A DNA stretch of 64,000 bases from Bacteroidetes bacterium GWF2_38_335. Lineage in GTDB: Bacteria; Bacteroidota; Bacteroidia; Bacteroidales; GWF2-38-335. This document shows positions 45,726 to 58,103 of the stretch, in pieces. The notes beneath the pieces were generated by a model. That model made no database searches, was not told the origin of the DNA, and saw only the letters and a list, made by a program, of their open reading frames with translations. Made by a program: the position numbers and the translations under genes. The number at the start of each line of letters is the position of its first letter. The stretch's first letter is position 1. The stretch is taken from positions 1 through 64,000 of the forward strand of contig MEOH01000022.1 in assembly GCA_001769535.1 (NCBI GenBank). The letters run 5' to 3'.

Positions 45726-46220
45726 ATGAAATCGAAAAAAATCTTAGTTGTGGATGACGATATCGACATCATAACTGTTCTGGAAACGCTTCTTAAAAAA
45801 GAAGGATACGAAGTTGTTACCGCTTCTAATAAAAAAGAAGGTATCGAAATGATTAAAAGTGAAAAACCCGACCTGGCAATCCTTGATGTGATGATGACCA
45901 CTCAGTATGAAGGATTTGAACTGGCAAAGGAACTCCTCGACAACCCACAGTTTAAGGAAATCCCCTTCCTGATCCAGTCTTCTATTGATATTCTGACCAC
46001 TACAAAAGCAGCTGTTCAGGAAATGGCAAGGGAATTCAGGAAAGATCCAAACTACAAAGATCTGCAGGTTCTTTTGGTTAAAAACGTAACCACCGGTGAA
46101 GCTGGTATTGACTACCGCACCGAAAAAGGTGAATCTGTTTGGTTCCCCGTAAACGGCTTCGTTAGAAAACCTGTTGAAGCTGCCAGAATTCTTCCCGAAA
46201 TCAAAAGAATTTTAAACTAA
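45726..46220 (+). CDS. Stand-alone response regulator with extended receiver
   Basis: A 164-residue receiver protein: acidic pocket VVDDDID at residues 8-14, phospho-acceptor Asp54 (AILDVMMT), and the conserved lysine in FVRKPV near residue 148. Between beta strands 4 and 5 there is an insertion of about 45 residues (around QEMAREFRKDPNYKDLQVLL and YRTEKGESVWFPVNG) not found in ordinary receivers. There is no DNA-binding or enzymatic output domain. It is first in the hydrogenase locus, 85 bases before hydC, and is a candidate partner for the hydrogenase-linked histidine kinases downstream. Confidence 0.85.
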   Translation: MKSKKILVVDDDIDIITVLETLLKKEGYEVVTASNKKEGIEMIKSEKPDLAILDVMMTTQYEGFELAKELLDNPQFKEIPFLIQSSIDILTTTKAAVQEMAREFRKDPNYKDLQVLLVKNVTTGEAGIDYRTEKGESVWFPVNGFVRKPVEAARILPEIKRILN

Positions 46221-46305: not shown

Positions 46306-46767
46306 ATGAAAGCACTCAACGAAATTGTAAAAAACTATCCCGGAAAAACACGGGATAACCTGATTCCGCTCTTACAGGAAATCCAAAATAATCAGGGCTA
46401 TCTCTCTAAGGAATCCATTGTTGAAGTGGGTAAATATCTTAACCTGCCTACCAGTAAAATTTTTGGTGTGGCAACTTTTTATAACCAGTTCAGATTCCAA
46501 CCCCTGGGCAAATTTCATATCCAGGTGTGCCGCGGAACTGCCTGTCACGTCCTTGGCTCTGCCACCGTGCTGCAGGAACTGGAAAAACATCTGCATATCA
46601 AAGCTGGTCAGACTACCCGCGATGGTTTTTTCAGCATCGAAGTGGTGGCTTGTATTGGCGCGTGCGGACTGGCTCCGGTCATCTGTGTGAATGGAAATTT
46701 CCATGCCGGCGTTACTGCAACTTCCATCAAGGAAATTATTGAAAAATATAAAACTCAGGAGGCCTGA
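46306..46767 (+). CDS. hydC: Bifurcating [FeFe]-hydrogenase gamma subunit (NuoE-like)
   Basis: A 153-residue thioredoxin-like [2Fe-2S] protein with ligands Cys75, Cys80, Cys116 and Cys120 (VCRGTACHVLG and ACIGACGLAP). This is the NuoE/HydC family; in trimeric electron-bifurcating hydrogenases the subunit passes electrons between the flavin subunit and the catalytic subunit. The N-terminal 70 residues form the helical NuoE head. It lies two bases before hydB. Cytoplasmic. HndA is the equivalent name in Desulfovibrio. Confidence 0.93.
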   Translation: MKALNEIVKNYPGKTRDNLIPLLQEIQNNQGYLSKESIVEVGKYLNLPTSKIFGVATFYNQFRFQPLGKFHIQVCRGTACHVLGSATVLQELEKHLHIKAGQTTRDGFFSIEVVACIGACGLAPVICVNGNFHAGVTATSIKEIIEKYKTQEA

Positions 46768-46769
46768 TC

Positions 46770-48722
46770 ATGAACAGCAAAAATCAGTCAAAGGAAAAGG
46801 AATTTCTTATCGATGAAATTTTAAGGGATTATACCAATAATTCCCGTGACAATGAAAACAGGGAAAAACTGGCAATTCTTAAAAACGAAAAAATCGATAT
46901 GCCAAATATATTCGTTGGTGCCGGTACTTGCGGACTGGGTGCCGGAGCCGACAAAACCATTGCTGAGGTAAACAAATACCTGAGCGAAAAAAATATCAAA
47001 GCTAAAATTACCGAGGTCGGTTGCATCGGACTGTGCTCTTCTGAACCCATTTTGGATGTCCAGCTTCCGGGCTTTAACCGCGTGTCTTTCGAAAAAGTTA
47101 CCGCCGATAAAGTCAGTGACTTGCTTGAAAATGTTTTTAACCTGAAAATGCCCGAATCCGGCATTCTCGGTCAGTTCCCATGCGAAGGCAGCAGATCATG
47201 GGATGGCGTTAAATCCATTTACGAACATCCGTTTTTTGCCCCGCAACAGCGACTGGTGCTTAAAAACTGCGGAATTATTGACCCGGTTAGTATCACTCAA
47301 TATATTGCCCACGGCGGATATAAAAGTCTCATAAAAACCATCAACACATACAAACCCGTTGAAGTGTGCCAGACCATTATTGACAGCGGTCTGCGCGGAC
47401 GTGGTGGCGGCGGATTCCCCACCGGAATGAAATGGAAATTTGCAAATTCTGAAAACAACCCGCAAAAATACCTCATCTGCAATGCCGACGAAGGCGACCC
47501 GGGTGCTTTTATGGACCGCGCCGTTATTGAAGGCGATCCCCACCGGCTCATCGAAGGTATGGCCATTGCCGGATATGCCATCGGTGCTACAAGAGCTTAC
47601 GTGTACATCAGGGCCGAATATCCCCTGGCCATTAAAAGACTGAAAATTGCCCTGGATGATGCCCGTGATTGGGGATTATTGGGAAAAAATATTTTTGAAA
47701 CAGGCTTTGATTTTGATATCAAAGTGAAAATGGGCGCCGGCGCTTTTGTGTGCGGCGAAGAAACTGCCCTCATGCAAAGCATCGAAGGCAAAAGGGGAAT
47801 GCCCAAACCCCGCCCGCCTTTTCCTACTACCAGCGGACTGTTTGGTAAACCAACCGTGATCAACAATGTGGAAACTTTATCAAATGTTTCCGGAATTATT
47901 GAAAAGGGAAAAGAATGGTTCAGCTCCATCGGAACAGAAAAATCAAAAGGCACCAAAGTGTTTGCTTTATCTGGTAAAGTGGCTCTGACCGGTTTGGTCG
48001 AAATTCCCATGGGCACTACTGTTCGCGATATCATTTTCAATATCGCCGGTGGCATTAAGAACAATAAAAAATTCAAATCGGTGCAGATTGGTGGCCCGTC
48101 AGGCGGATGTATTACCGAACAAAACCTTGACATACAAATTGACTATGAATCATTGATCGGTGCCGGCGCTATGATGGGATCGGGCGGATTGGTGGTCATG
48201 GACGAGGAAACCTGCATGGTGGATGTGGCCAAATTCTTTATGGATTTTATCCAGCGCGAAAGTTGCGGAAAATGTATTCCCTGCCGCGAAGGAACAAAAA
48301 GAATGCTCGAAATTCTCGAAAACATCACAACCAAACCTGTCCCGGGCGACAACAACACTACCCTCGAAAGATTTAAAGGGGTAATGCAACTGGAAAAACT
48401 CAGCCGGGTTATTAAAGAAACTTCGCTGTGCGGACTTGGTCAAACAGCTCCGAATCCAGTTCTCAGCACCCTTAAGTGGTTCAGAAACGAATACGAAGCT
48501 CATATTTTTGACCGTACCTGTCCGGCTGGCGTATGTACCGGATTGAAATCCTACAAAATTGATGTGGACAAATGTACCGGATGTACTGTCTGCTCCAAAA
48601 AATGCCCGGCGAATGCCATCATCGGCTCCAAAAAAACTCCGCATTTTATCGTCGAAGACAGATGTATTGGTTGCGGTGCCTGTGCCGAAGCATGCAAATT
48701 CGAAGCAATTTCTGTGATCTAA
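46770..48722 (+). CDS. hydB: Bifurcating [FeFe]-hydrogenase beta subunit (NuoF-like, NAD- and FMN-binding)
   Basis: A 650-residue flavoprotein. An N-terminal thioredoxin-like domain holds Cys54, Cys85 and Cys89 (GTCGLGAG, GCIGLCS), one cysteine short of the usual four. The NuoF core follows: LRGRGGGGFPTGMKWKF near 207 (FMN/NADH), NADEGDPGAFMDR near 235, and the [4Fe-4S] motif ESCGKCIPCREG near 500. Two ferredoxin clusters end the protein (CTGCTVCSKKCPAN, CIGCGACAEACKFE). This subunit oxidises or reduces NAD(H) and is the probable site of flavin-based electron bifurcation with ferredoxin. Sits between hydC and hydA. Confidence 0.95.
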   Translation: MNSKNQSKEKEFLIDEILRDYTNNSRDNENREKLAILKNEKIDMPNIFVGAGTCGLGAGADKTIAEVNKYLSEKNIKAKITEVGCIGLCSSEPILDVQLPGFNRVSFEKVTADKVSDLLENVFNLKMPESGILGQFPCEGSRSWDGVKSIYEHPFFAPQQRLVLKNCGIIDPVSITQYIAHGGYKSLIKTINTYKPVEVCQTIIDSGLRGRGGGGFPTGMKWKFANSENNPQKYLICNADEGDPGAFMDRAVIEGDPHRLIEGMAIAGYAIGATRAYVYIRAEYPLAIKRLKIALDDARDWGLLGKNIFETGFDFDIKVKMGAGAFVCGEETALMQSIEGKRGMPKPRPPFPTTSGLFGKPTVINNVETLSNVSGIIEKGKEWFSSIGTEKSKGTKVFALSGKVALTGLVEIPMGTTVRDIIFNIAGGIKNNKKFKSVQIGGPSGGCITEQNLDIQIDYESLIGAGAMMGSGGLVVMDEETCMVDVAKFFMDFIQRESCGKCIPCREGTKRMLEILENITTKPVPGDNNTTLERFKGVMQLEKLSRVIKETSLCGLGQTAPNPVLSTLKWFRNEYEAHIFDRTCPAGVCTGLKSYKIDVDKCTGCTVCSKKCPANAIIGSKKTPHFIVEDRCIGCGACAEACKFEAISVI

Positions 48723-48739: not shown

Positions 48740-50464
48740 ATGAACTTTTCTATAGAAGTCAATAATAAAAAAGTAGAAGCCCTGAAAGGCGAAAAACTTC
48801 TGGATACCCTGAACAGAGCCGGAATAAAAGTCCCCACCCTTTGTCACATGAAAGACAGATTTCCTTCGGGAGCATGCCGCTTATGTGTGGTCGAAGACAT
48901 GAATACAGGCAAACTGATTACTTCATGCTCTTTTCCCGCTTCCGAAGGAATGAGGATACAAACACACTCCCCACGGGTTGTTGAATCAAGAAAAACAATT
49001 ATTGAGCTGCTTTTGGCCAACCATCCCGATGACTGCCTTTACTGCACCCGCAACGGAAACTGCGAGTTACAGTCACTTTCTGACAATCTTCAGGTTAGGG
49101 AAAGAAGAATTACTGGCAGAAAAAGCAAAAACAACATGGACTTATCCAGTCCGAGCATCGTCCGCGATCCCGATAAATGCATTCTTTGCGGCAGATGTGT
49201 GCGTGTTTGCGAAGAAGTGATGGAAGTTTCAGCCATTGATTTCATCAACCGCGGAAGCCGCACGGTAATCGGAACTTCCTTTAACCAGGGATTGAACACT
49301 TCGAGCTGCGTAAACTGCGGACAGTGTATCATGGTTTGTCCAACCGGCGCACTCACCGAGAAAAAGCACTACGAGGAAATAAAAAATGCCCTTGCAGATA
49401 AAACAAAAACCGTTGTTATTCAATATGCCCCGACCATATCTGTATCGCTGGCCGAAGAATTTAAAATGAAACCCGGAACGGATATTAACAGAATCATGAA
49501 TGCCGCACTCAGAAAAGTAGGGTTTGATTATGTGTTCGACACCACTTTTTCTGCCGACCTCACCATTATGGAAGAATCGGCCGAACTGATCCAAAGGGTG
49601 CTCAACAACGGAACCTTACCCATGATCACAAGTTGTTGTCCCGGTTGGGTTAAGTTTGCGGAGGAATTTTTCCCCGACCTGCTGCCCCACGTTTCTTCAT
49701 GCAAATCACCACAGCAAATGCTCGGAGCAGTTATTAAAACCTACTGGGCACAAAAAATGAATATGGCTCCTGCAAATATCTATTCAGTTGCCGTAATGCC
49801 ATGCACAGCCAAAAAATTTGAAGCCCAGCGCGAAGAAATGACCACCGAAGGAATAACCGATGTGGATGCCGTTTTAACTACCCGCGAACTGGCTCAGTTT
49901 CTGAAAATGCTGGGCGTGGATATGGAAAATATCGAACCCGAAAATGCCGATTCTCCTCATGGATTCAGATCAACAGCCGGAAAACTGTTTGGTGCGTCGG
50001 GCGGAGTAATGGAAGCAGCATTAAGAACTGCGTATTTTAAAATCACCGGTAATGAAATGCCTCAACTGAAAGTTGACCAAATCAGAGGACTACAGGGAAG
50101 AAAAGAAGCCAATATTAAAGTGGGAGACCTGGAAATTGGTGTGGCTGTGGTATCCGGTTTGGCAAATGCGAAAAAGCTGATGGAAGAAATCAGAGCAGGA
50201 AAATCAAAGGTTCATTTCATTGAGGTAATGGCTTGTCCCGGCGGCTGCATCAACGGAGGCGGTCAGCCCATCGGTGCCGGTGAAAATGCCATCAAAGCCA
50301 GAATGAAATCGCTTTATGATATTGATGAACAGGAAGCAGTAAGGGTATCTCACAAAAACCCCGAAATCATTGAAATTTATAATGAATTTCTGGGCGAACC
50401 CTGTGGACATAAAAGCCACGAATTGCTCCACACAACATACAACAAAAGAGATGTTTTAATGTAA
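48740..50464 (+). CDS. hydA: Bifurcating [FeFe]-hydrogenase catalytic subunit
   Basis: The ATG at 48740 gives 574 residues. Clusters from the N-terminus: [2Fe-2S] (Cys35, 46, 49, 63), His-ligated [4Fe-4S] (His95, Cys99, 102, 108), two ferredoxin [4Fe-4S] (Cys147-157, Cys190-200), then the H-cluster domain with L1 TSCCPGW (Cys299 proton relay, Cys300), L2 MPCTAKK (Met353, Cys355, Lys358) and L3 ACPGGCINGGGQP (Cys499, Cys503). All catalytic residues are present and fall at the same residue numbers as in Clostridium pasteurianum CpI. It evolves or oxidises H2. A small-subunit-like tail ends the protein (GEPCGHKSHELLH). Confidence 0.97.
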   Translation: MNFSIEVNNKKVEALKGEKLLDTLNRAGIKVPTLCHMKDRFPSGACRLCVVEDMNTGKLITSCSFPASEGMRIQTHSPRVVESRKTIIELLLANHPDDCLYCTRNGNCELQSLSDNLQVRERRITGRKSKNNMDLSSPSIVRDPDKCILCGRCVRVCEEVMEVSAIDFINRGSRTVIGTSFNQGLNTSSCVNCGQCIMVCPTGALTEKKHYEEIKNALADKTKTVVIQYAPTISVSLAEEFKMKPGTDINRIMNAALRKVGFDYVFDTTFSADLTIMEESAELIQRVLNNGTLPMITSCCPGWVKFAEEFFPDLLPHVSSCKSPQQMLGAVIKTYWAQKMNMAPANIYSVAVMPCTAKKFEAQREEMTTEGITDVDAVLTTRELAQFLKMLGVDMENIEPENADSPHGFRSTAGKLFGASGGVMEAALRTAYFKITGNEMPQLKVDQIRGLQGRKEANIKVGDLEIGVAVVSGLANAKKLMEEIRAGKSKVHFIEVMACPGGCINGGGQPIGAGENAIKARMKSLYDIDEQEAVRVSHKNPEIIEIYNEFLGEPCGHKSHELLHTTYNKRDVLM

Positions 50465-50473
50465 TTAACGGCC

Positions 50474-52456
50474 ATGGGACACGCAAAAAGAAATAAACTG
50501 GTATTTACTGTCAAGGACAGATGCAGGGTTTGCTACACCTGTCTGAGAGAATGTCCCGTTAAGGCCATTAAAATAATAAACGGGCAGGCAGAGGTGATAA
50601 GCGAAAGATGCATTGGTTGTGGAAACTGCGTTTCAGTATGCAGTCAAAAAGCCAAAGTATATTTTGACTCTGTCGAAAGGGTTGAAAACATGCTTCAATC
50701 AGAACCGGAAATCGTTGCCTGCATTGCGCCAAGTTTCCCGGCTGAATTTTCTGAAATTCCTGACCATAAATTTTTGGTTGGAATGATTAAAAAGCTGGGT
50801 TTTCATAGGGTTTTTGAGGTTGCTTTCGGTGCCGATCTGGTGGCTAAAGAGTATAGCAAACTGATTGAATCGGCAGGGGAAAAAACGTATATTTCTTCTG
50901 ACTGCCCCGCTATTGTTTTTTACATTGAACATTATTATCCCGAACTGATTAAAAATCTGGCTCCCATTGCATCACCCATGGTGGCCATTTGCAGGGTGAT
51001 CAGAAAAAAATACGGTGAAAACACAAAGGTTGTGTTTATTGGTCCGTGTATCGCCAAAAAAGCCGAATCGGATGAGATTGATGAAGCCCTTACCTTTATC
51101 GAACTCAGAACACTTTTTGAACGAAATGCAATTACCGTTGAAAATGCTGATCCTTCTGAGTTTGATTCACCTCATCCCGGAAAGGGCGCTATTTTTCCGG
51201 TTTCAAGAGGATTACTGCAATCGGTAAATATTAAAGATGACATCATTAAAGGCGAAATTCTGGTAGCCTCCGGAAGAATCAACTTCAGGGAAGCAATTAA
51301 AGAATTTGATAACAAGGAAATTGAAGCAAAACACCTGGAACTTCTTTGCTGCGACGGGTGCATTATGGGTCCGGGCATGAGCCAGTGCGGAAAACCATAT
51401 CACCGCAGGGTGCGCATCAGCAATTATGTGAAGAGCCGTCTCGAAGTCCTTGATAACGAAAAATGGTCGGAAGAAATGAATGAATACAACGACATTGTTT
51501 TGTCACAGACTTTCAATCCGGCCGACCGCAGACAGGAAAAACCTGCCTATGATATGGTGGAAAAAATCCTGCTGAGTATGGGCAAAAATGATACCAAAGA
51601 CCATTTGAACTGTGGCGCTTGCGGCTATGACACCTGCATTGAACACGCTGAGGCTATTTTGCTCGGACATGCCGAAAATGAAATGTGCCTGCCCTTTGCC
51701 ATTGAAAAATTACACAAATCTGTTAATGCGCTCAACATATCCAATGAAAATCTTGCCAATGCAAAGTTAGCTTTAAAACAATCTGAAAAACTGGCAAGTA
51801 TGGGACAACTGTCGGCAGGAATCGCTCATGAATTAAACAATCCCCTGGGGGTCATTACCTTATACAGTAATATCCTCAAAGATGAGATTTCTGCTGATAG
51901 CCCTGTCCAGAAAGACCTGCAGCTTATTGTTGAACAGTCTGAAAGATGTAAGAAAATTGTAGGCGGATTATTGAATTTTGCCAGAAAAAATCAGGTCAAA
52001 CTGGTTGAGACAGATTTTGAAAAATTTGTACACCACAGCATTGAATCGGTTATCATTCCAGGCAACGTGCAGGTTGAAATAAAAAGCAGCCTTGTAGATA
52101 AAATGGTCATGATCGATACCGATCAGATGATGCAGGTGCTTACCAATCTTGAGAAAAATGCCGTTGAGGCCATGCCTGCAGGAGGTAATCTGACCATTGA
52201 AATTACCGGCGATAAACAATCTGTCGAAATTGCCATCAATGATAGTGGAACAGGCATCCCAAAAGAAAATATGGAAAAATTGTTTGAGCCGTTTTTCACA
52301 ACCAAGGAACCGGGAAAAGGTACCGGACTGGGTTTGCCCCTGGTTTATGGAATTGTGAAAATGCATAAGGGACAAATCAATGTTGTGTCAAATACCTTGC
52401 CCGAAAACGGACCTGTTGGAACAACTTTTAAAATTGTTTTACCAAGATATAATTAA
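50474..52456 (+). CDS. Sensory [FeFe]-hydrogenase-like protein fused to a histidine kinase
   Basis: A 660-residue fusion. Two ferredoxin clusters (Cys17/20/23/27 and Cys46/49/52/56) lead to an [FeFe]-hydrogenase H domain (about 75-325) with all four H-cluster cysteines: Cys144 (SSDCP), Cys192 (GPCIAKK) and Cys292/Cys296 ([10 protein letters not shown]). The proton-relay cysteine of L1 is Asp143 and the L2 methionine is Gly190. A further four-cysteine Fe-S domain (CGACGYDTC near 380, Cys405) follows, then HisKA with phospho-acceptor His452 (AHELNNPLG) and an ATPase domain ([21 protein letters not shown]). Probable H2 or redox sensor signalling by phosphorylation. Ten bases from hydA and from the next receiver gene. 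Confidence 0.92.
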
Positions 52457-52465
52457 AATAAAAAG

Positions 52466-52864
52466 ATGAAAACAAAACTTAATAAAACCATCCTTGTTGC
52501 AGATGACGACGTGGATTATCTGGAACAAATAAAATTGCAGGTGAAGGAATTTGGCTTTGATGTGATTACCGCAGGAAGTCAGAAAGAAGCAGAAAAACTA
52601 ATGTGCGAACAACGTCCCGATCTTGCACTGTTCGACCTCATGATGGAAAACCAGGATTCGGGTTTTATCCTGAGCTACAAATTTAAAAAATTGTACCCCG
52701 AAGTCCCGGTAATCATTGCTACAGCTGTTACCGCCGAAACCGGACTGGTTTTCAACATCGAAAACAGTGATGATAAAAACTGGATCAGGGCCGACAAATA
52801 CCTTGAAAAAGGTTTGCGTCCCGATCAGTTGCACCGTGAAATAAATAAACTCTTAAAAATCTGA
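52466..52864 (+). CDS. Stand-alone response regulator
   Basis: A 132-residue single-domain receiver with acidic pocket ADDDVD at residues 12-17, phospho-acceptor Asp57 (ALFDLMME), and lysine in KYLEKGL near residue 113. A short insertion rich in Asp/Asn/Lys (ENSDDKNWIRADKY) precedes the lysine, similar to but shorter than that of the receiver at 45726. It is nine bases after the sensor kinase gene and four before the hybrid kinase gene, so it is the best candidate for the phosphate carrier between them. Confidence 0.88.
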   Translation: MKTKLNKTILVADDDVDYLEQIKLQVKEFGFDVITAGSQKEAEKLMCEQRPDLALFDLMMENQDSGFILSYKFKKLYPEVPVIIATAVTAETGLVFNIENSDDKNWIRADKYLEKGLRPDQLHREINKLLKI

Positions 52865-52868
52865 TACC

Positions 52869-53990
52869 ATGGAAAAGTTAAAAGTTCTGGTTGTTGATGA
52901 TGAACCCGGCATCCGCTCGGGCATCGAAAGGATTCTCAGAACTTTTTCTGTAGGATTCCCCTTCCTCGCCGAAGATTTCAGCTTTGACATCATCGAAGCA
53001 GGATCGGGCGAGAAAGCCATCGAAATCATCAATGCTGAAAAAATGGACATAGTCCTTCTGGATAATAAATTACCCGGAATCTATGGAATTGACGTGCTGG
53101 AATACATCAACAAAAACCAACCCGACATTTCGGTCATGATGATTACTTCCTATGCTTCTCTCGATTTGGCCGTAAAAGCCACAAACAACGGGGCATACAA
53201 TTTTATGCCAAAGCCGTTTACTCCACAGGAACTGAAAGCATCCATCGAAAGCATCACCAAACATCTGTTCCTGAAAAGGATGACCAAAAAAATGAACGAA
53301 ACCGGAAAACAAATCAGATTTCAGTTTCTTTCAGTTTTGTCGCATGAACTCAAATCGCCACTCAACGCCATTGACGGATATCTCAAAATCATGAAAGATA
53401 AACAGGTGGGCGAAAACATCGAAGATTACATGGTGATGATTGACCGGTCAATGGAACGCATCAAAGGAATGAGAACCCTGATCATGGATCTGCTTGATCT
53501 CACAAAAATCGAATCGGGCAAGAAAAACCGCGACATCACAATGGTCGATCTTTACGAAGTAGCCCGGTTGGCAATTGATACTGTTGAGCCATTGGCCATA
53601 CAGAAAAATATTAAAGTTCATTTGAATGCCGAAGAAAATATCTGGCTGAAAACCGATAAGGATGAGATGGACATTGTCTTCAACAACCTTATTTCGAATG
53701 CGGTGAAATATAACCGTGATGGCGGCTCGGTTAATGTGAACATTAAAAAAACTGATACAGCTATAACATTCTCAGTCGAAGATACCGGCATCGGAATGGA
53801 TGAGGAAGAAGTATCCCGGCTTTTTGGTGAATTCGTAAGGATCAAAAATGCCAAAACTAAAAATATTACAGGTTCCGGTTTGGGCTTGTCCATTGCAAAA
53901 AAAATGGTTGAACTGAATAACGGAACCATTACGTTAGAATCAAAACCCGATGTGGGCACAAAATTTACTGTAGTAATTCCTGAAAATTAA
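52869..53990 (+). CDS. Receiver-histidine kinase hybrid
   Basis: A 373-residue protein with an N-terminal receiver (VVDDEPG at residues 8-14, phospho-acceptor Asp65 in VLLDNKLPG, lysine in MPKPF near 115), a short coiled linker, HisKA with His159 (LSVLSHELKSPLN) and a HATPase domain (NNLISNAVKYN, DTGIGM, GSGLGL). There is no input sensor and no membrane segment, so it probably takes its signal as phosphate or as a conformation from a partner, plausibly the hydrogenase-linked kinase and the lone receiver upstream. It precedes hydG by five bases. Confidence 0.9.
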   Translation: MEKLKVLVVDDEPGIRSGIERILRTFSVGFPFLAEDFSFDIIEAGSGEKAIEIINAEKMDIVLLDNKLPGIYGIDVLEYINKNQPDISVMMITSYASLDLAVKATNNGAYNFMPKPFTPQELKASIESITKHLFLKRMTKKMNETGKQIRFQFLSVLSHELKSPLNAIDGYLKIMKDKQVGENIEDYMVMIDRSMERIKGMRTLIMDLLDLTKIESGKKNRDITMVDLYEVARLAIDTVEPLAIQKNIKVHLNAEENIWLKTDKDEMDIVFNNLISNAVKYNRDGGSVNVNIKKTDTAITFSVEDTGIGMDEEEVSRLFGEFVRIKNAKTKNITGSGLGLSIAKKMVELNNGTITLESKPDVGTKFTVVIPEN

Positions 53991-53995
53991 CCGCC

Positions 53996-55423
53996 ATGAA
54001 ATTCAATCCGCAGCAATACCGAATAAAAGATGAACCGGGCGTTCCGTTCATCGATCCTGTGGAAATACAGGAAATTATCGATGGCACAGAATCATCTGTT
54101 GAAAAAGTCAGCACAGTGATTGCCAGATCATTTGCCAAGGAACGCCTCAGCATGCAGGATGTGGCTGTTTTAATCAATGCCAGGGATAGCGTTTCAAAGC
54201 AACTGATCAGGGATTCGGCAAAAGAACTGAAAAAACGTATTTATGGAAACAGAATAGTGCTTTTTGCTCCGCTGTATGTTGGAAATTTGTGCAGCAACAA
54301 CTGTTCATACTGCGGATTCAGAGCATCAAATACCGATGCAGTCAGAAAAACCCTCACAGAAAGTGAGCTGATTGAAAACGTCAAAGCCCTTGAGGAAAAC
54401 GGACAAAAACGATTGATTCTGGTTTTTGGCGAACACAGGAATTACTCTCCCGAATTTATTGCCAATGCAGTTAAAACTGTTTATGGCGTGAAATCCGGAA
54501 ACGGAGAAATTCGCAGGGTAAACATCAATGCCGCTCCGCTGGATGAAGAGGGATTCAGAGTTGTAAAGGAAGCCGGTATTGGCACTTATCAGGTTTTTCA
54601 GGAAACATACAACAAATCATCATACGAAAAGTTTCACACTGCCGGAAAAAAGGCAGATTTTAATTACAGATTGGTATCACTGGACAGGGCGATGGTTGCG
54701 GGGATTGACGACGTGGGTATCGGCGCCCTTTTTGGTTTATACGACTGGAGATTTGAAGTTCTTTCACTCATACGTCACGTAAACCACCTGGAAGCTTGTT
54801 TCAATATTGGTCCGCATACCATCTCATTTCCACGCTTGCAAAAAGCCCTCGAAGTGAAAATGGACACCAAATACCTTGTGGATGATGATGACTTTCAGCA
54901 ACTGGTAGCCATATTAAGACTGGCTGTTCCTTATACCGGAATGATTCTCACTGCACGTGAAAGTGAAAAAGTCAGAAAAGAAGTGCTGCAATATGGTTGC
55001 TCCCAGATTGATGCCGGAACAAAAATTGAAATCGGTGCTTATGCCGGAAAATTCAGGGAAAATCAGGAACTCAACCGCGAACAGTTTTACATCAATGACA
55101 ACCGCTCATTGGGCGATGTGGTAAGAGAACTGATCGATGACGGTTATCTGCCTTCATTCTGCACCGCTTGTTACAGAAAGGGCAGGACAGGAGAACATTT
55201 TATGGAGTTTTCGGTTCCGGGATTTATCAAAAGATTTTGCACTGCCAACGCAATCCTCACACTGGCCGAATACATCTGCGATTATGCCGATGAAAAAACT
55301 GCCGAAAAAGGATGGAAGCTGGTGGAAAAAAACCTTGAGGAACTGAAGGATTTTCGCGATACCGACGAACTCAAATCCCGCATCGAAAAAATCAAATCAG
55401 GTCAACGCGATTTGTATTATTAA
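53996..55423 (+). CDS. hydG: [FeFe]-hydrogenase maturase HydG
   Basis: This 475-residue radical SAM enzyme has the cluster motif CSNNCSYC (Cys99, 103, 106) and the C-terminal second-cluster motif CTACYRKG...FC (Cys389, Cys392 and Cys415, spaced C-x2-C-x22-C). HydG cleaves tyrosine to give CO and cyanide ligands on an iron synthon for the H-cluster diiron site. Length matches the family. It opens the maturation part of the locus, five bases after the hybrid kinase, and serves both the enzyme hydA and presumably the sensory H domain. Confidence 0.97.
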   Translation: MKFNPQQYRIKDEPGVPFIDPVEIQEIIDGTESSVEKVSTVIARSFAKERLSMQDVAVLINARDSVSKQLIRDSAKELKKRIYGNRIVLFAPLYVGNLCSNNCSYCGFRASNTDAVRKTLTESELIENVKALEENGQKRLILVFGEHRNYSPEFIANAVKTVYGVKSGNGEIRRVNINAAPLDEEGFRVVKEAGIGTYQVFQETYNKSSYEKFHTAGKKADFNYRLVSLDRAMVAGIDDVGIGALFGLYDWRFEVLSLIRHVNHLEACFNIGPHTISFPRLQKALEVKMDTKYLVDDDDFQQLVAILRLAVPYTGMILTARESEKVRKEVLQYGCSQIDAGTKIEIGAYAGKFRENQELNREQFYINDNRSLGDVVRELIDDGYLPSFCTACYRKGRTGEHFMEFSVPGFIKRFCTANAILTLAEYICDYADEKTAEKGWKLVEKNLEELKDFRDTDELKSRIEKIKSGQRDLYY

Positions 55424-55585: not shown

Positions 55586-56821
55586 ATGAACAAAGGAAAG
55601 GATCTTAAACCCCACATCGGAATCTTCGGCCGCACAAACAACGGCAAAAGCTCCTTCATCAACAACCTGACCGGACAAAGGGTTGCGATAGTATCAGATG
55701 TTCCCGGAACCACCACCGACCCAGTGAAAAAATCCATGGAAATATTCGGAATTGGTCCGGCAATAATTATTGACACCGCCGGAATGGATGATGAAAGTCA
55801 GCTCGGAAAAATGCGCGTTGAAAAAACAATGGATGTGCTCAAACTCATCGATGCGGCCGTACTGCTGATTTCAGAAAACAGGTTTGATGAGCCGGAAATC
55901 GAAATGATCAACAGTTTCGCAGAATTCGACATCCCATTTGTGGTGGTGCACAACAAATCAGACCTTGAAGAAATAAAACTTGAAACCATAGAGAAAATAA
56001 GGGCATTTACCACAAGCGCAGTCATCGATTTCTGCAGCATGACATTAAACCAGAACGAAGAGCTGATCGAAGCCCTGAAAAAAACCATTCCCGTCACTGC
56101 TTACCAAAAACCCTCTCTTTTCAAAGGCATGATCAAAGACAAAGATGTGGTGTTGCTGGTAACACCCATCGACTCGGAAGCCCCCGACGGCAGAATGATC
56201 CTGCCGCAGGTAATGGCACTCCGCGATGTTCTCGACAACCATTGTATTTGCATTATTGTCAGGGAAACAGAACTGGAGGATTTTTTCAAACTTGGAATAA
56301 AACCCGCTTTGGTGGTCACCGACAGCCAGGCGTTTAAGTTTGTCTCTTCGATTGTGCCAAAGGAAATTCCGCTCACAGGATTTAGTATCGCCTTTGCCCG
56401 TCTGAAAGGAAATTTCGAACATTTTATTAAGGGAACTCCGGCCATTGACAAGCTTAAAAACGGCGACAAAGTTTTGATACTCGAATCATGCACCCATCAG
56501 GTAAGCTGCGAAGATATCGGTCGGCATAAACTTCCCGACTGGATCAGAAAACACACCGGAAAAGAGATTGAATTCGAAATTGTTGCGGGGATAGACAACC
56601 GGTCAACTATAAACGAAAAATATGCTTTGGTAATTCAATGTGGTGGATGCGTGGCAACCGAAAAACAAGTAGTTAACAAACTGAAACCATTCATTGAAAA
56701 AGGGATTCCGGTTACCAACTACGGCATGGCCATTGCCTGGATGAACGGAATTTTTACCCGTGCCACTAATATGTACCGCATTCCTAACCCCGGCATTCAG
56801 GCCGGGGATATTGACAGGTAA
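55586..56821 (+). CDS. hydF: [FeFe]-hydrogenase maturase GTPase HydF
   Basis: A 411-residue GTPase and scaffold. The N-terminal GTPase has GRTNNGKSS (residues 15-23), GTTTDP (41-46), DTAG (63-66) and NKSD (123-126). The C-terminal cluster-binding domain has Cys302-x-His304 and Cys352-x2-Cys355 (QCGGC; many HydF proteins read HCGGC there). HydF carries the diiron precursor to the apo-hydrogenase. The last eleven residues (NPGIQAGDIDR) and stop codon are encoded by a CCCCGG hairpin repeat found elsewhere in the window as non-coding DNA, so the natural C-terminus has been replaced. Confidence 0.95.
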   Translation: MNKGKDLKPHIGIFGRTNNGKSSFINNLTGQRVAIVSDVPGTTTDPVKKSMEIFGIGPAIIIDTAGMDDESQLGKMRVEKTMDVLKLIDAAVLLISENRFDEPEIEMINSFAEFDIPFVVVHNKSDLEEIKLETIEKIRAFTTSAVIDFCSMTLNQNEELIEALKKTIPVTAYQKPSLFKGMIKDKDVVLLVTPIDSEAPDGRMILPQVMALRDVLDNHCICIIVRETELEDFFKLGIKPALVVTDSQAFKFVSSIVPKEIPLTGFSIAFARLKGNFEHFIKGTPAIDKLKNGDKVLILESCTHQVSCEDIGRHKLPDWIRKHTGKEIEFEIVAGIDNRSTINEKYALVIQCGGCVATEKQVVNKLKPFIEKGIPVTNYGMAIAWMNGIFTRATNMYRIPNPGIQAGDIDR

Positions 56822-57011: not shown

Positions 57012-58103
57012 ATGAAACCACAAGAAATAACAGATATCATCCAAAAACCCCTTCACTTCCTCAGTGACATCATCACCCTTTTATCCCTGCAAGGCGATGA
57101 AATGAACCTGTTATTCAAAAAAGCCCGCGAAATAAAAGAAAAACACGTTGGCAACGAGGTGTATCTCCGCGGATTAATCGAATATTCAAACATCTGCGCC
57201 AAAGATTGCCACTACTGCGGAATCAGAAAAAGCAACCACGAATGCCGGCGTTACCGGATGACCGATGCCGATGTTCTCGAAGCCGTTCATTTTGCCTGCA
57301 AAAATAATATTCAATCTATTGTCATCCAGTCGGGGGAACTCAGCTCGCCCGAATTTGTTCAATGCATGACCGGACTGCTTGAAAATATTAGAAAATATAT
57401 AGGAAACGATCTGGGCATCACCCTTTCCTGCGGTGAGCAAAGTAAAGAAACCTATGAAAGGTGGAAAAAGGCCGGAGCCACAAGGTATCTGCTAAGAATA
57501 GAAACCACCAACAGGGAACTGTACGAAAAAATCCATCCGAAGAATAAATTGCACAGCTTCGATTCACGACTTGATGCATTGAAACAAATTCAAAAATGCG
57601 GGTTTCAAACCGGGACCGGAGTCATGATCGGACTGCCCGGTCAAACCGTCGAAGACCTGGCCAGTGACATCCTTTTCATGCACGACATGGACATTGACAT
57701 GTGCGGTATGGGTCCGTATGTTGAGAGCATCAACACTCCTCTGTACGAAAGGAAAAGCGAAATTCCCGATGCCGAAACCCGCAGCGACCTCACATTAAAA
57801 ATGATTGCCGTTTTGAGGATTGTAATGAAAGACATCAATATTGCCTCCACCACCGCTTTGCAAACATTGAACCCCAATGGCAAAAAAAATGCGCTTCTTG
57901 TGGGTGCCAATGTCATCATGCCCAACATAACACCAATAAAATGCAAAACCGACTACAATCTGTACACAGGAAAACCCGGCAGTTTCAACACCCGTGAAGC
58001 TGAGCTGGAAAACACCTTTAACATCATATCCGCTGCCGGTACTGAGCCGAATAATGGAAAAAGGGGGGATTCGGTTAGATTTTTGAGGAGAAATAATCCC
58101 TGA
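57012..58103 (+). CDS. hydE: [FeFe]-hydrogenase maturase HydE
   Basis: A 363-residue radical SAM enzyme with the cluster motif CAKDCHYC (Cys62, 66, 69), SGELSS near residue 117 and the TIM-barrel strand IGLPGQTVEDLA near 208. HydE acts after HydG on the iron-CO-CN synthon on the way to the azadithiolate-bridged diiron unit. It lies after a repeat-filled gap of 190 bases following hydF, and is the last gene of the hydrogenase locus. No terminator with a T run is clear after it. Confidence 0.95.
   Translation: MKPQEITDIIQKPLHFLSDIITLLSLQGDEMNLLFKKAREIKEKHVGNEVYLRGLIEYSNICAKDCHYCGIRKSNHECRRYRMTDADVLEAVHFACKNNIQSIVIQSGELSSPEFVQCMTGLLENIRKYIGNDLGITLSCGEQSKETYERWKKAGATRYLLRIETTNRELYEKIHPKNKLHSFDSRLDALKQIQKCGFQTGTGVMIGLPGQTVEDLASDILFMHDMDIDMCGMGPYVESINTPLYERKSEIPDAETRSDLTLKMIAVLRIVMKDINIASTTALQTLNPNGKKNALLVGANVIMPNITPIKCKTDYNLYTGKPGSFNTREAELENTFNIISAAGTEPNNGKRGDSVRFLRRNNP

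Follow-up and report, generated by a model that had tools for sequence, protein, structure and literature searches.

The window analysed here comprises 64,000 nucleotides of contig MEOH01000022.1 from Bacteroidetes bacterium GWF2_38_335 (assembly GCA_001769535.1) and carries, on its forward strand, a hydrogenase gene cluster in the order RRa, NuoE, NuoF, HydA, sensor, RRb, receiver-kinase, HydG, HydF and HydE. The stand-alone receiver RRa (45726–46220), which occurs in the subclade of the window, lies upstream of the NuoE-like (46306–46767) and NuoF-like (46770–48722) subunits of an NADH-linked hydrogenase. These are followed by the catalytic subunit HydA (48740–50464), which scores above the cut-off of the NCBIfam model 'NADH-dependent [FeFe] hydrogenase, group A6', and by the sensor gene (50474–52456). 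Downstream lie a second stand-alone receiver, RRb (52466–52864), a receiver-controlled histidine kinase of Rec-HisKA-HATPase architecture (52869–53990), recognised from its domains and the locus order, and the maturases HydG (53996–55423), HydF (55586–56821) and HydE (57012–58103). Since the gaps from NuoE to HydG are only 2, 17, 9, 9, 4 and 5 bases, this stretch is very likely transcribed as a unit. An earlier reading of the window, made from the sequence only, had placed the sensor inside the hydrogenase operon, which agrees with the tight gaps, with NuoE, NuoF and HydA before it and with HydG after it. A search of the source genome found only two H-domain proteins, the sensor and the HydA directly upstream. 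No consistent match to sigma-54 or Bacteroidetes promoter motifs was found upstream of the operon.

The sensor open reading frame is real, starts with ATG and encodes 660 amino acids, in which two [4Fe-4S] motifs, an H domain, a C-terminal Fe-S domain, a putative signalling helix, HisKA and HATPase follow one another according to Pfam and motif reading. The two ferredoxin-type motifs (50522–50641; C17/20/23/27 and C46/49/52/56; Fer4_10 at residues 13–56) are conserved in all 53 kinase-type relatives compared. The H domain (50711–51373; Fe_hyd_lg_C at residues 80–300) is matched with an E-value of 1.6e-48 and a score of 166 bits, where the cut-off is 22, and was also recovered in the own-genome search. 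Next comes the C-terminal Fe-S domain (51611–51688; PF04060 at residues 378–407), supported by Pfam, motif and conservation, with the pattern Cx2Cx4Cx16C formed by C380, C383, C388 and C405. A proposed signalling helix (51689–51826) leads from this domain to the phospho-accepting His452 of HisKA (51800–51991; residues 443–506), and HATPase_c (52115–52447; residues 548–658) ends the chain. All five Pfam domains exceed their curated cut-offs. The protein is a HisKA histidine kinase with H, N, G1, F and G2 boxes all present (HELNNP at 452, NLEKNA at 558, DSGTG at 590, EPFFTT at 605 and GLGLP at 618), and H452, N562, D590, G594, G618 and G620 are invariant in 53/53 kinase-type relatives. No PAS domain was matched in the sensor at E 0.001, and HisKA begins at residue 443. 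The domain order on a single chain and the lack of a PAS domain are as the sequence-only reading had them, and its residue numbers (D143, C144, G190, C192, C292, C296 and H452) are all correct. AlphaFold models were of low confidence, both for the full-length sensor with a 7-row alignment (pLDDT 58, pTM 0.38) and for the Fe-S-linker-kinase part with 3 rows (pLDDT 60).

Relatives of the sensor are widespread in the same order. A search of 393 genomes, with identity taken over the first 429 residues, returned more than 110 proteins of about 650–720 residues and 47–69% identity, together with a second protein class of about 615–640 residues and 41–48% identity. The same architecture is found in another class of the phylum at 39–44% identity, and no relative was found on viral contigs. 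The relatives come mostly from partly fragmented genomes, and their genes were predicted with a simple ORF script. In the 52 kinase-type loci that were read completely, HydA lies directly upstream of the sensor in 48, RRb directly downstream in 49 and the receiver-kinase second downstream in 48, the order NuoE-NuoF-HydA-sensor-RRb-RecHK being common to both taxonomic classes. The receiver-kinase of the other class is a long Rec-PAS-kinase form. In that class (loci L123–L133), the kinase-type operon is frequently succeeded at once by a third receiver and another NuoE-NuoF-HydA set, which often brings a kinase of its own.

The gene that follows the relay genes is rex in 23 of these 52 loci, usually with ribF after it (rex and ribF in 22–23 loci), and hydG in 10. 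Because of this position of rex, transcription at such loci may respond mainly to NADH. Rex-box-like 18-mers (TTGTTATTTTTTTAACAA type) occur upstream of NuoE in rex-bearing loci, for example L071, L074, L085 and L087; with at least 12 of 14 matches, they are present in 10 of the 23 rex-bearing loci compared with about 1.5% of shuffled sequences. Together, the rex genes and the 18-mers suggest that NADH controls transcription in these relatives. In the source genome, rex sits elsewhere (G000:C3:18951-19556). With regard to the relay itself, no DNA-binding domain was found in any protein of the conserved gene set. A relay that ends in a co-encoded sigma-54 or other DNA-binding regulator was rejected for the conserved genes, because such a domain is absent both from the relay of the window and from the long Rec-PAS-kinase found in the other class; for the same reason, regulation of the hydrogenase operon by the predicted relay is hypothetical.

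The H domain retains the residues expected of H-cluster ligands, with one reassignment. The L1 motif (50900–50905) contains Asp143, which aligns with CpI Cys299, and the ligand Cys144; the L2 motif (51041–51049) contains Gly190, the counterpart of CpI Met353, followed by Pro191 and the ligand Cys192. The L3 stretch reads C292-C293-D-G-C296. The sequence-only reading had named cysteines 144, 192, 292 and 296 as the four ligands, which holds for 144, 192 and 296 but probably not for 292. None of the 53 kinase-type relatives departs from C293 or C296. Position 292 does vary: all 11 relatives from the other class have Phe there, and 2 of the 42 Bacteroidales members have Ser or Gly. On this conservation, the third ligand is most likely C293, paired with C296 in a Cx2C motif (51350–51361). 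C144, C192, C293 and C296 are all kept in the 53 kinase-type proteins. Wherever L3 is readable in the kinase types it has this Cx2C form, one residue shorter than the Cx3C of the group A, B and D and clostridial sensor sequences compared, and the shortening might alter or prevent a normal H-cluster. No mention of a Cx2C loop in L3 was found in the available text of the literature consulted. Gly190 is likewise invariant in 53/53 kinase types, and its alignment with CpI Met353 upholds the earlier view that glycine replaces the L2 methionine; TmHydS has Gly at the same position and Ala at that of Cys299 (PMC8163306, PMC10055695).

Asp143 does replace the proton-relay cysteine, as had been claimed. 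Reading this change as a plain loss of the relay did not stand up: of all 19 replacements of the cysteine in CaHydA, only Asp retained high activity, with a kcat about twofold lower in C298D (PMC3485046), and Asp at that position in other enzymes moved the reactivity toward H2 evolution (PMC9563086). By analogy, Asp143 may well relay protons. Asp is found at this position in 39 of 42 Bacteroidales kinase types and, in a larger set of 125, in 100 of the 118 readable proteins, the remainder having P, S, A, C or N. Since relatives with the same operon in the other class of the phylum have Pro, Ala or Ser, the family does not need an Asp relay, and Asp143 is, judging from the alignment, a lineage feature and no general requirement.

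The placement of the sensor among [FeFe]-hydrogenases was assessed with an IQ-TREE maximum-likelihood tree of 58 proteins. The alignment behind it spanned the ferredoxin, H and Fe-S domains but left out L3. Group A was supported at 100/100, group B at 99/96, the branch with D and group C at 95/83, and group C minus D at 89/93, the last being below the starred level of support. The kinase type is nested within group C, in the company of the Ruminococcus albus HydS and further sensors of the PAS type; groups A, B and D lie elsewhere in the tree. This accords with the sensory group C membership proposed before. The tree had also been suggested as a check on the H-cluster, and in a sample made up of groups A to D, without Narf-like proteins, the sensor did not come out among proteins that lack one. 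The features shared with group C are the four H-cluster cysteines (C144/C192/C293/C296, with Cx2C in place of Cx3C in L3), the replacement of the proton-relay cysteine and of Met353 (here by D143 and G190) and the Cx2Cx4Cx16C motif. Against the group A model TIGR02512, the sensor scores 112 bits with a cut-off of 406, and it differs at Cys299, Met353 and CPGGC; against TIGR04105 (monomeric, B1), it scores 175 bits with a cut-off of 450 and lies on a separate branch. It is set apart from group D by Gly190 rather than Ser or Thr at the Met353 position, by the presence of the kinase and by its separate branch. The histidine kinase linkage that characterises HydDB group C1 is present as HisKA and HATPase_c on the same chain, and the PAS domain that follows the Fe-S domain in strict M2f (TmHydS-like) proteins is absent. 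By descent the sensor thus belongs to group C, and its architecture makes it kinase-linked; because it lacks a PAS domain, it is not a PAS-type M2f protein.

The second Bacteroidales protein class bears a PAS-type C-terminal part. Such proteins were seen at L083:3432-5291 and at 33 other Bacteroidales loci (e.g. L004:3622-5484, L074 and L089). Considering all groups, a SpoIIE phosphatase gene follows 38 of 41 PAS-type proteins, as it does the R. albus HydS. By H domain, the Bacteroidales PAS class is nested among the kinase types in the IQ-TREE analysis, and a single clade of all PAS-type sensors was rejected (AU p 2.3e-8). The C-terminal parts of the PAS types are nevertheless recognisably related despite this split, so that the simplest reading of the sequences would be that sensor lineages exchanged H-domain parts and PAS-SpoIIE output modules. 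At least one H-cluster cysteine is missing in 9 of the 34 Bacteroidales PAS paralogues, with the C-terminal Fe-S cysteines kept. Three loci (L099, L101 and L102; e.g. L101:13612-14979) encode a group D sensory hydrogenase of 456–468 amino acids, whose operon also contains DRTGG and HATPase genes; each has a PAS-type sensor a few kilobases from that operon.

The connection between the Fe-S domain and the kinase shows a regular length. Among 123 scorable proteins, the spacing from C405 to H452 is 47 residues in 109, 40 in 12 and 33 in 2, so that all 123 differ by whole heptads. The tree of these proteins requires a minimum of four independent spacing changes, all of them multiples of seven. If net indel lengths were even over 1–14, this would occur by chance about 4 times in 10,000, a figure that serves only as a guide because the pattern was spotted after the lengths had been inspected. 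A within-protein control was clear: among six other motif spacings there were 121 departures from the modal length, none of which was a multiple of seven. The heptad spacing suggests that a coiled-coil signalling helix joins the Fe-S domain to the kinase, and in the sensor this proposed helix begins directly at the [4Fe-4S] domain. Linkers of whole heptads are common among histidine kinases in general, and the pattern therefore speaks for coupling and not for any particular ligand. LOV and phytochrome kinases are known to connect sensor and DHp by heptad linkers, and in YF1 whole heptads preserve the sign of the response while one added residue inverts it (PMC6798134).

The earlier suggestion that Fe-S clusters wire the hydrogenase directly to the kinase was correct in that an Fe-S domain stands next to the kinase, whereas wiring by electrons is disfavoured. 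In the group D protein TamHydS, 1 atm H2 fails to reduce the C-terminal cluster, although H2 alters the secondary structure (PMC13104023). This observation, which we infer to carry over to the sensor, and the heptad spacing together favour a path from hydrogenase to kinase that would be mechanical rather than electronic. For the next step, a precedent is LvrB of Leptospira, a Rec-controlled kinase that is activated by an upstream kinase and in which receiver phosphorylation builds a coiled coil (PMC13269768). The protein encoded at 52869–53990 shares the Rec-DHp-CA architecture of LvrB and likewise follows a kinase that could charge it, with the difference that its upstream sensor is a hydrogenase. 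In the short forms of this receiver-kinase, the spacing from KP to His is 44 residues in 41 of 41. By analogy, we propose that the hydrogenase-kinase charges RRb, the receiver of 52869–53990, or both.

The sensor is probably an intracellular H2-responsive sensor kinase that reports the output of the adjoining NADH-linked [FeFe]-hydrogenase, with mechanical coupling through the helix and a relay through RRb and the Rec-kinase. In such a system, the maturases would build an H-cluster in the H domain, which would show slow, sensor-type chemistry. H2, the presumed ligand, would be bound and oxidised, with a change in the charge state of the H-cluster and the N-terminal clusters and, as in TamHydS, an altered protein shape. 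The C-terminal Fe-S domain, in the usual place of a PAS domain, would pass this change mechanically, via a coiled-coil helix in heptad register, to the HisKA dimer, which would toggle between kinase and phosphatase activity. The phosphoryl group would then move to RRb, to the receiver domain of the Rec-kinase whose gene follows, or to both, and from there the signal would reach an output encoded outside this locus. Consistent with this proposal, the H-cluster, Fe-S and kinase residues are intact in 53/53 kinase-type relatives, HydE, HydF and HydG are encoded in the same cluster, and the sole other H-domain protein found in the genome is HydA.

Other readings of these data were weighed. The protein might respond to redox state instead of H2, with reduced ferredoxin or another carrier charging the N-terminal clusters and the H-cluster fixing the resting potential by letting electrons out. 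Such a role would suit the two invariant N-terminal ferredoxin clusters and the NADH-linked enzyme next door, and redox control of the operon is plausible because the NADH-sensing rex comes after the relay genes in so many loci. A pure redox sensor would nonetheless have no need to keep four H-cluster cysteines and Gly190 in 53 of 53 proteins, nor to lie beside maturases, and the neighbouring PAS paralogues do lose H-cluster cysteines; we consider this reading rather unlikely.

It appears very unlikely that the protein is a catalytic hydrogenase which also signals, with Asp143 relaying protons and H2 turned over at a useful rate. The CaHydA variant that retains about half of its kcat (PMC3485046) and the prevalence of Asp143 in the Bacteroidales members and the larger set would agree with turnover, but the same-operon relatives with Pro, Ala or Ser, the lack of an electron-partner domain beyond the ferredoxin motifs and the fusion to a kinase argue against it. 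The H domain could also be devoid of a normal H-cluster owing to its shortened L3, in which case the sensing would be done by a [4Fe-4S] cluster or would concern another molecule, e.g. O2 or CO. The Cx2C loop points in this direction, as does the outright loss of H-cluster cysteines in the nine PAS paralogues; the invariance of all four cysteines in the kinase types, and the persistence of the gene beside an active hydrogenase and, in the window, beside maturases, speak against this possibility, which we judge highly improbable.

The sensor had been put forward as the best candidate for a little-described system, and this is half right. HydDB lists a group C1 'histidine kinase-linked (putative)' [FeFe]-hydrogenase (PMC5037454), and in Petrimonas mucosa the C1 gene ING2E5A_0849 lies beside hndABCD (PMC7768429). 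These share with the sensor a Bacteroidales host, kinase linkage, a hydrogenase operon next door and proposed H2 sensing; no difference is known for ING2E5A_0849, which is likened by description alone, a single fused chain not being stated. In Hydrogenedentota, according to the available text of the report, BfuT is an H-domain protein with a kinase domain beside the HydABC-type subunits of the bifurcating hydrogenase BfuABC, sub-type V; it differs in its phylum and in its label, C3 instead of C1, and that text gives no account of neighbouring receivers or linker spacing (PMC11406978). Kinase-carrying forms are thus labelled C1 in PMC7768429 and C3 in the available text of PMC11406978. Given these precedents, the kinase-fused sensory hydrogenase is a known kind, of which 50474–52456 is an additional member. 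PAS-type HydS proteins, such as TmHydS and the R. albus 7 HydS (locus L139), share the two N-terminal [4Fe-4S] motifs, the H domain, the C-terminal Fe-S motif and Gly at the Met353 position. Unlike the sensor, TmHydS has a PAS domain rather than a fused kinase and Ala at the Cys299 position, and the R. albus HydS has a separate SpoIIE phosphatase gene and Cx3C in L3. Group D HydS (TamHydS; L101:13612-14979) also lacks PAS, has the C-terminal Cx2Cx4Cx16C and lies beside a bifurcating hydrogenase, but it has no kinase, falls on a separate tree branch and has Cx3C in L3, with Thr at the Met353 position in three Bacteroidales members and Ser in TamHydS where the sensor has Gly190.

No prior description was found in the literature consulted of the heptad quantisation, the lineage features Asp143 and Cx2C, the conserved receiver/Rec-kinase pair or the module exchange. 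In the boldest reading, there would be a widespread Bacteroidota subfamily in which a [4Fe-4S] domain replaces PAS and drives the kinase mechanically through a heptad helix, the H-cluster is held by the shortened Cx2C loop, Asp serves as proton relay and a dedicated receiver/Rec-kinase relay takes up the signal; its H-domain part would also have recombined with the PAS-SpoIIE module, yielding the neighbouring Bacteroidales PAS sensor. We consider this combination somewhat less likely than not. H2 sensing by 'sensory' [FeFe]-hydrogenases is still deemed putative (PMC8924675), and no experiments on any kinase-fused member were found in the literature consulted. TmHydS and TamHydS, which have been studied in detail, have no output domain with a readable activity. 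A natural fusion of H domain and kinase, encoded in one operon with maturases and probable phosphotransfer partners, would offer a direct assay of the effect of H2 on autophosphorylation or phosphatase activity. If the heptad spacing is true, the insertion of 1–6 residues should change or break the response, and that of 7 should keep it.

Second HydA copies were observed at several loci (L094, L130, L131 and L133), some of them without Cys at an aligned H-cluster position and several with Ser at the C300 position. This is in line with the variable P1 motif that the available text of PMC11406978 reports for bifurcating sub-types in Hydrogenedentota.
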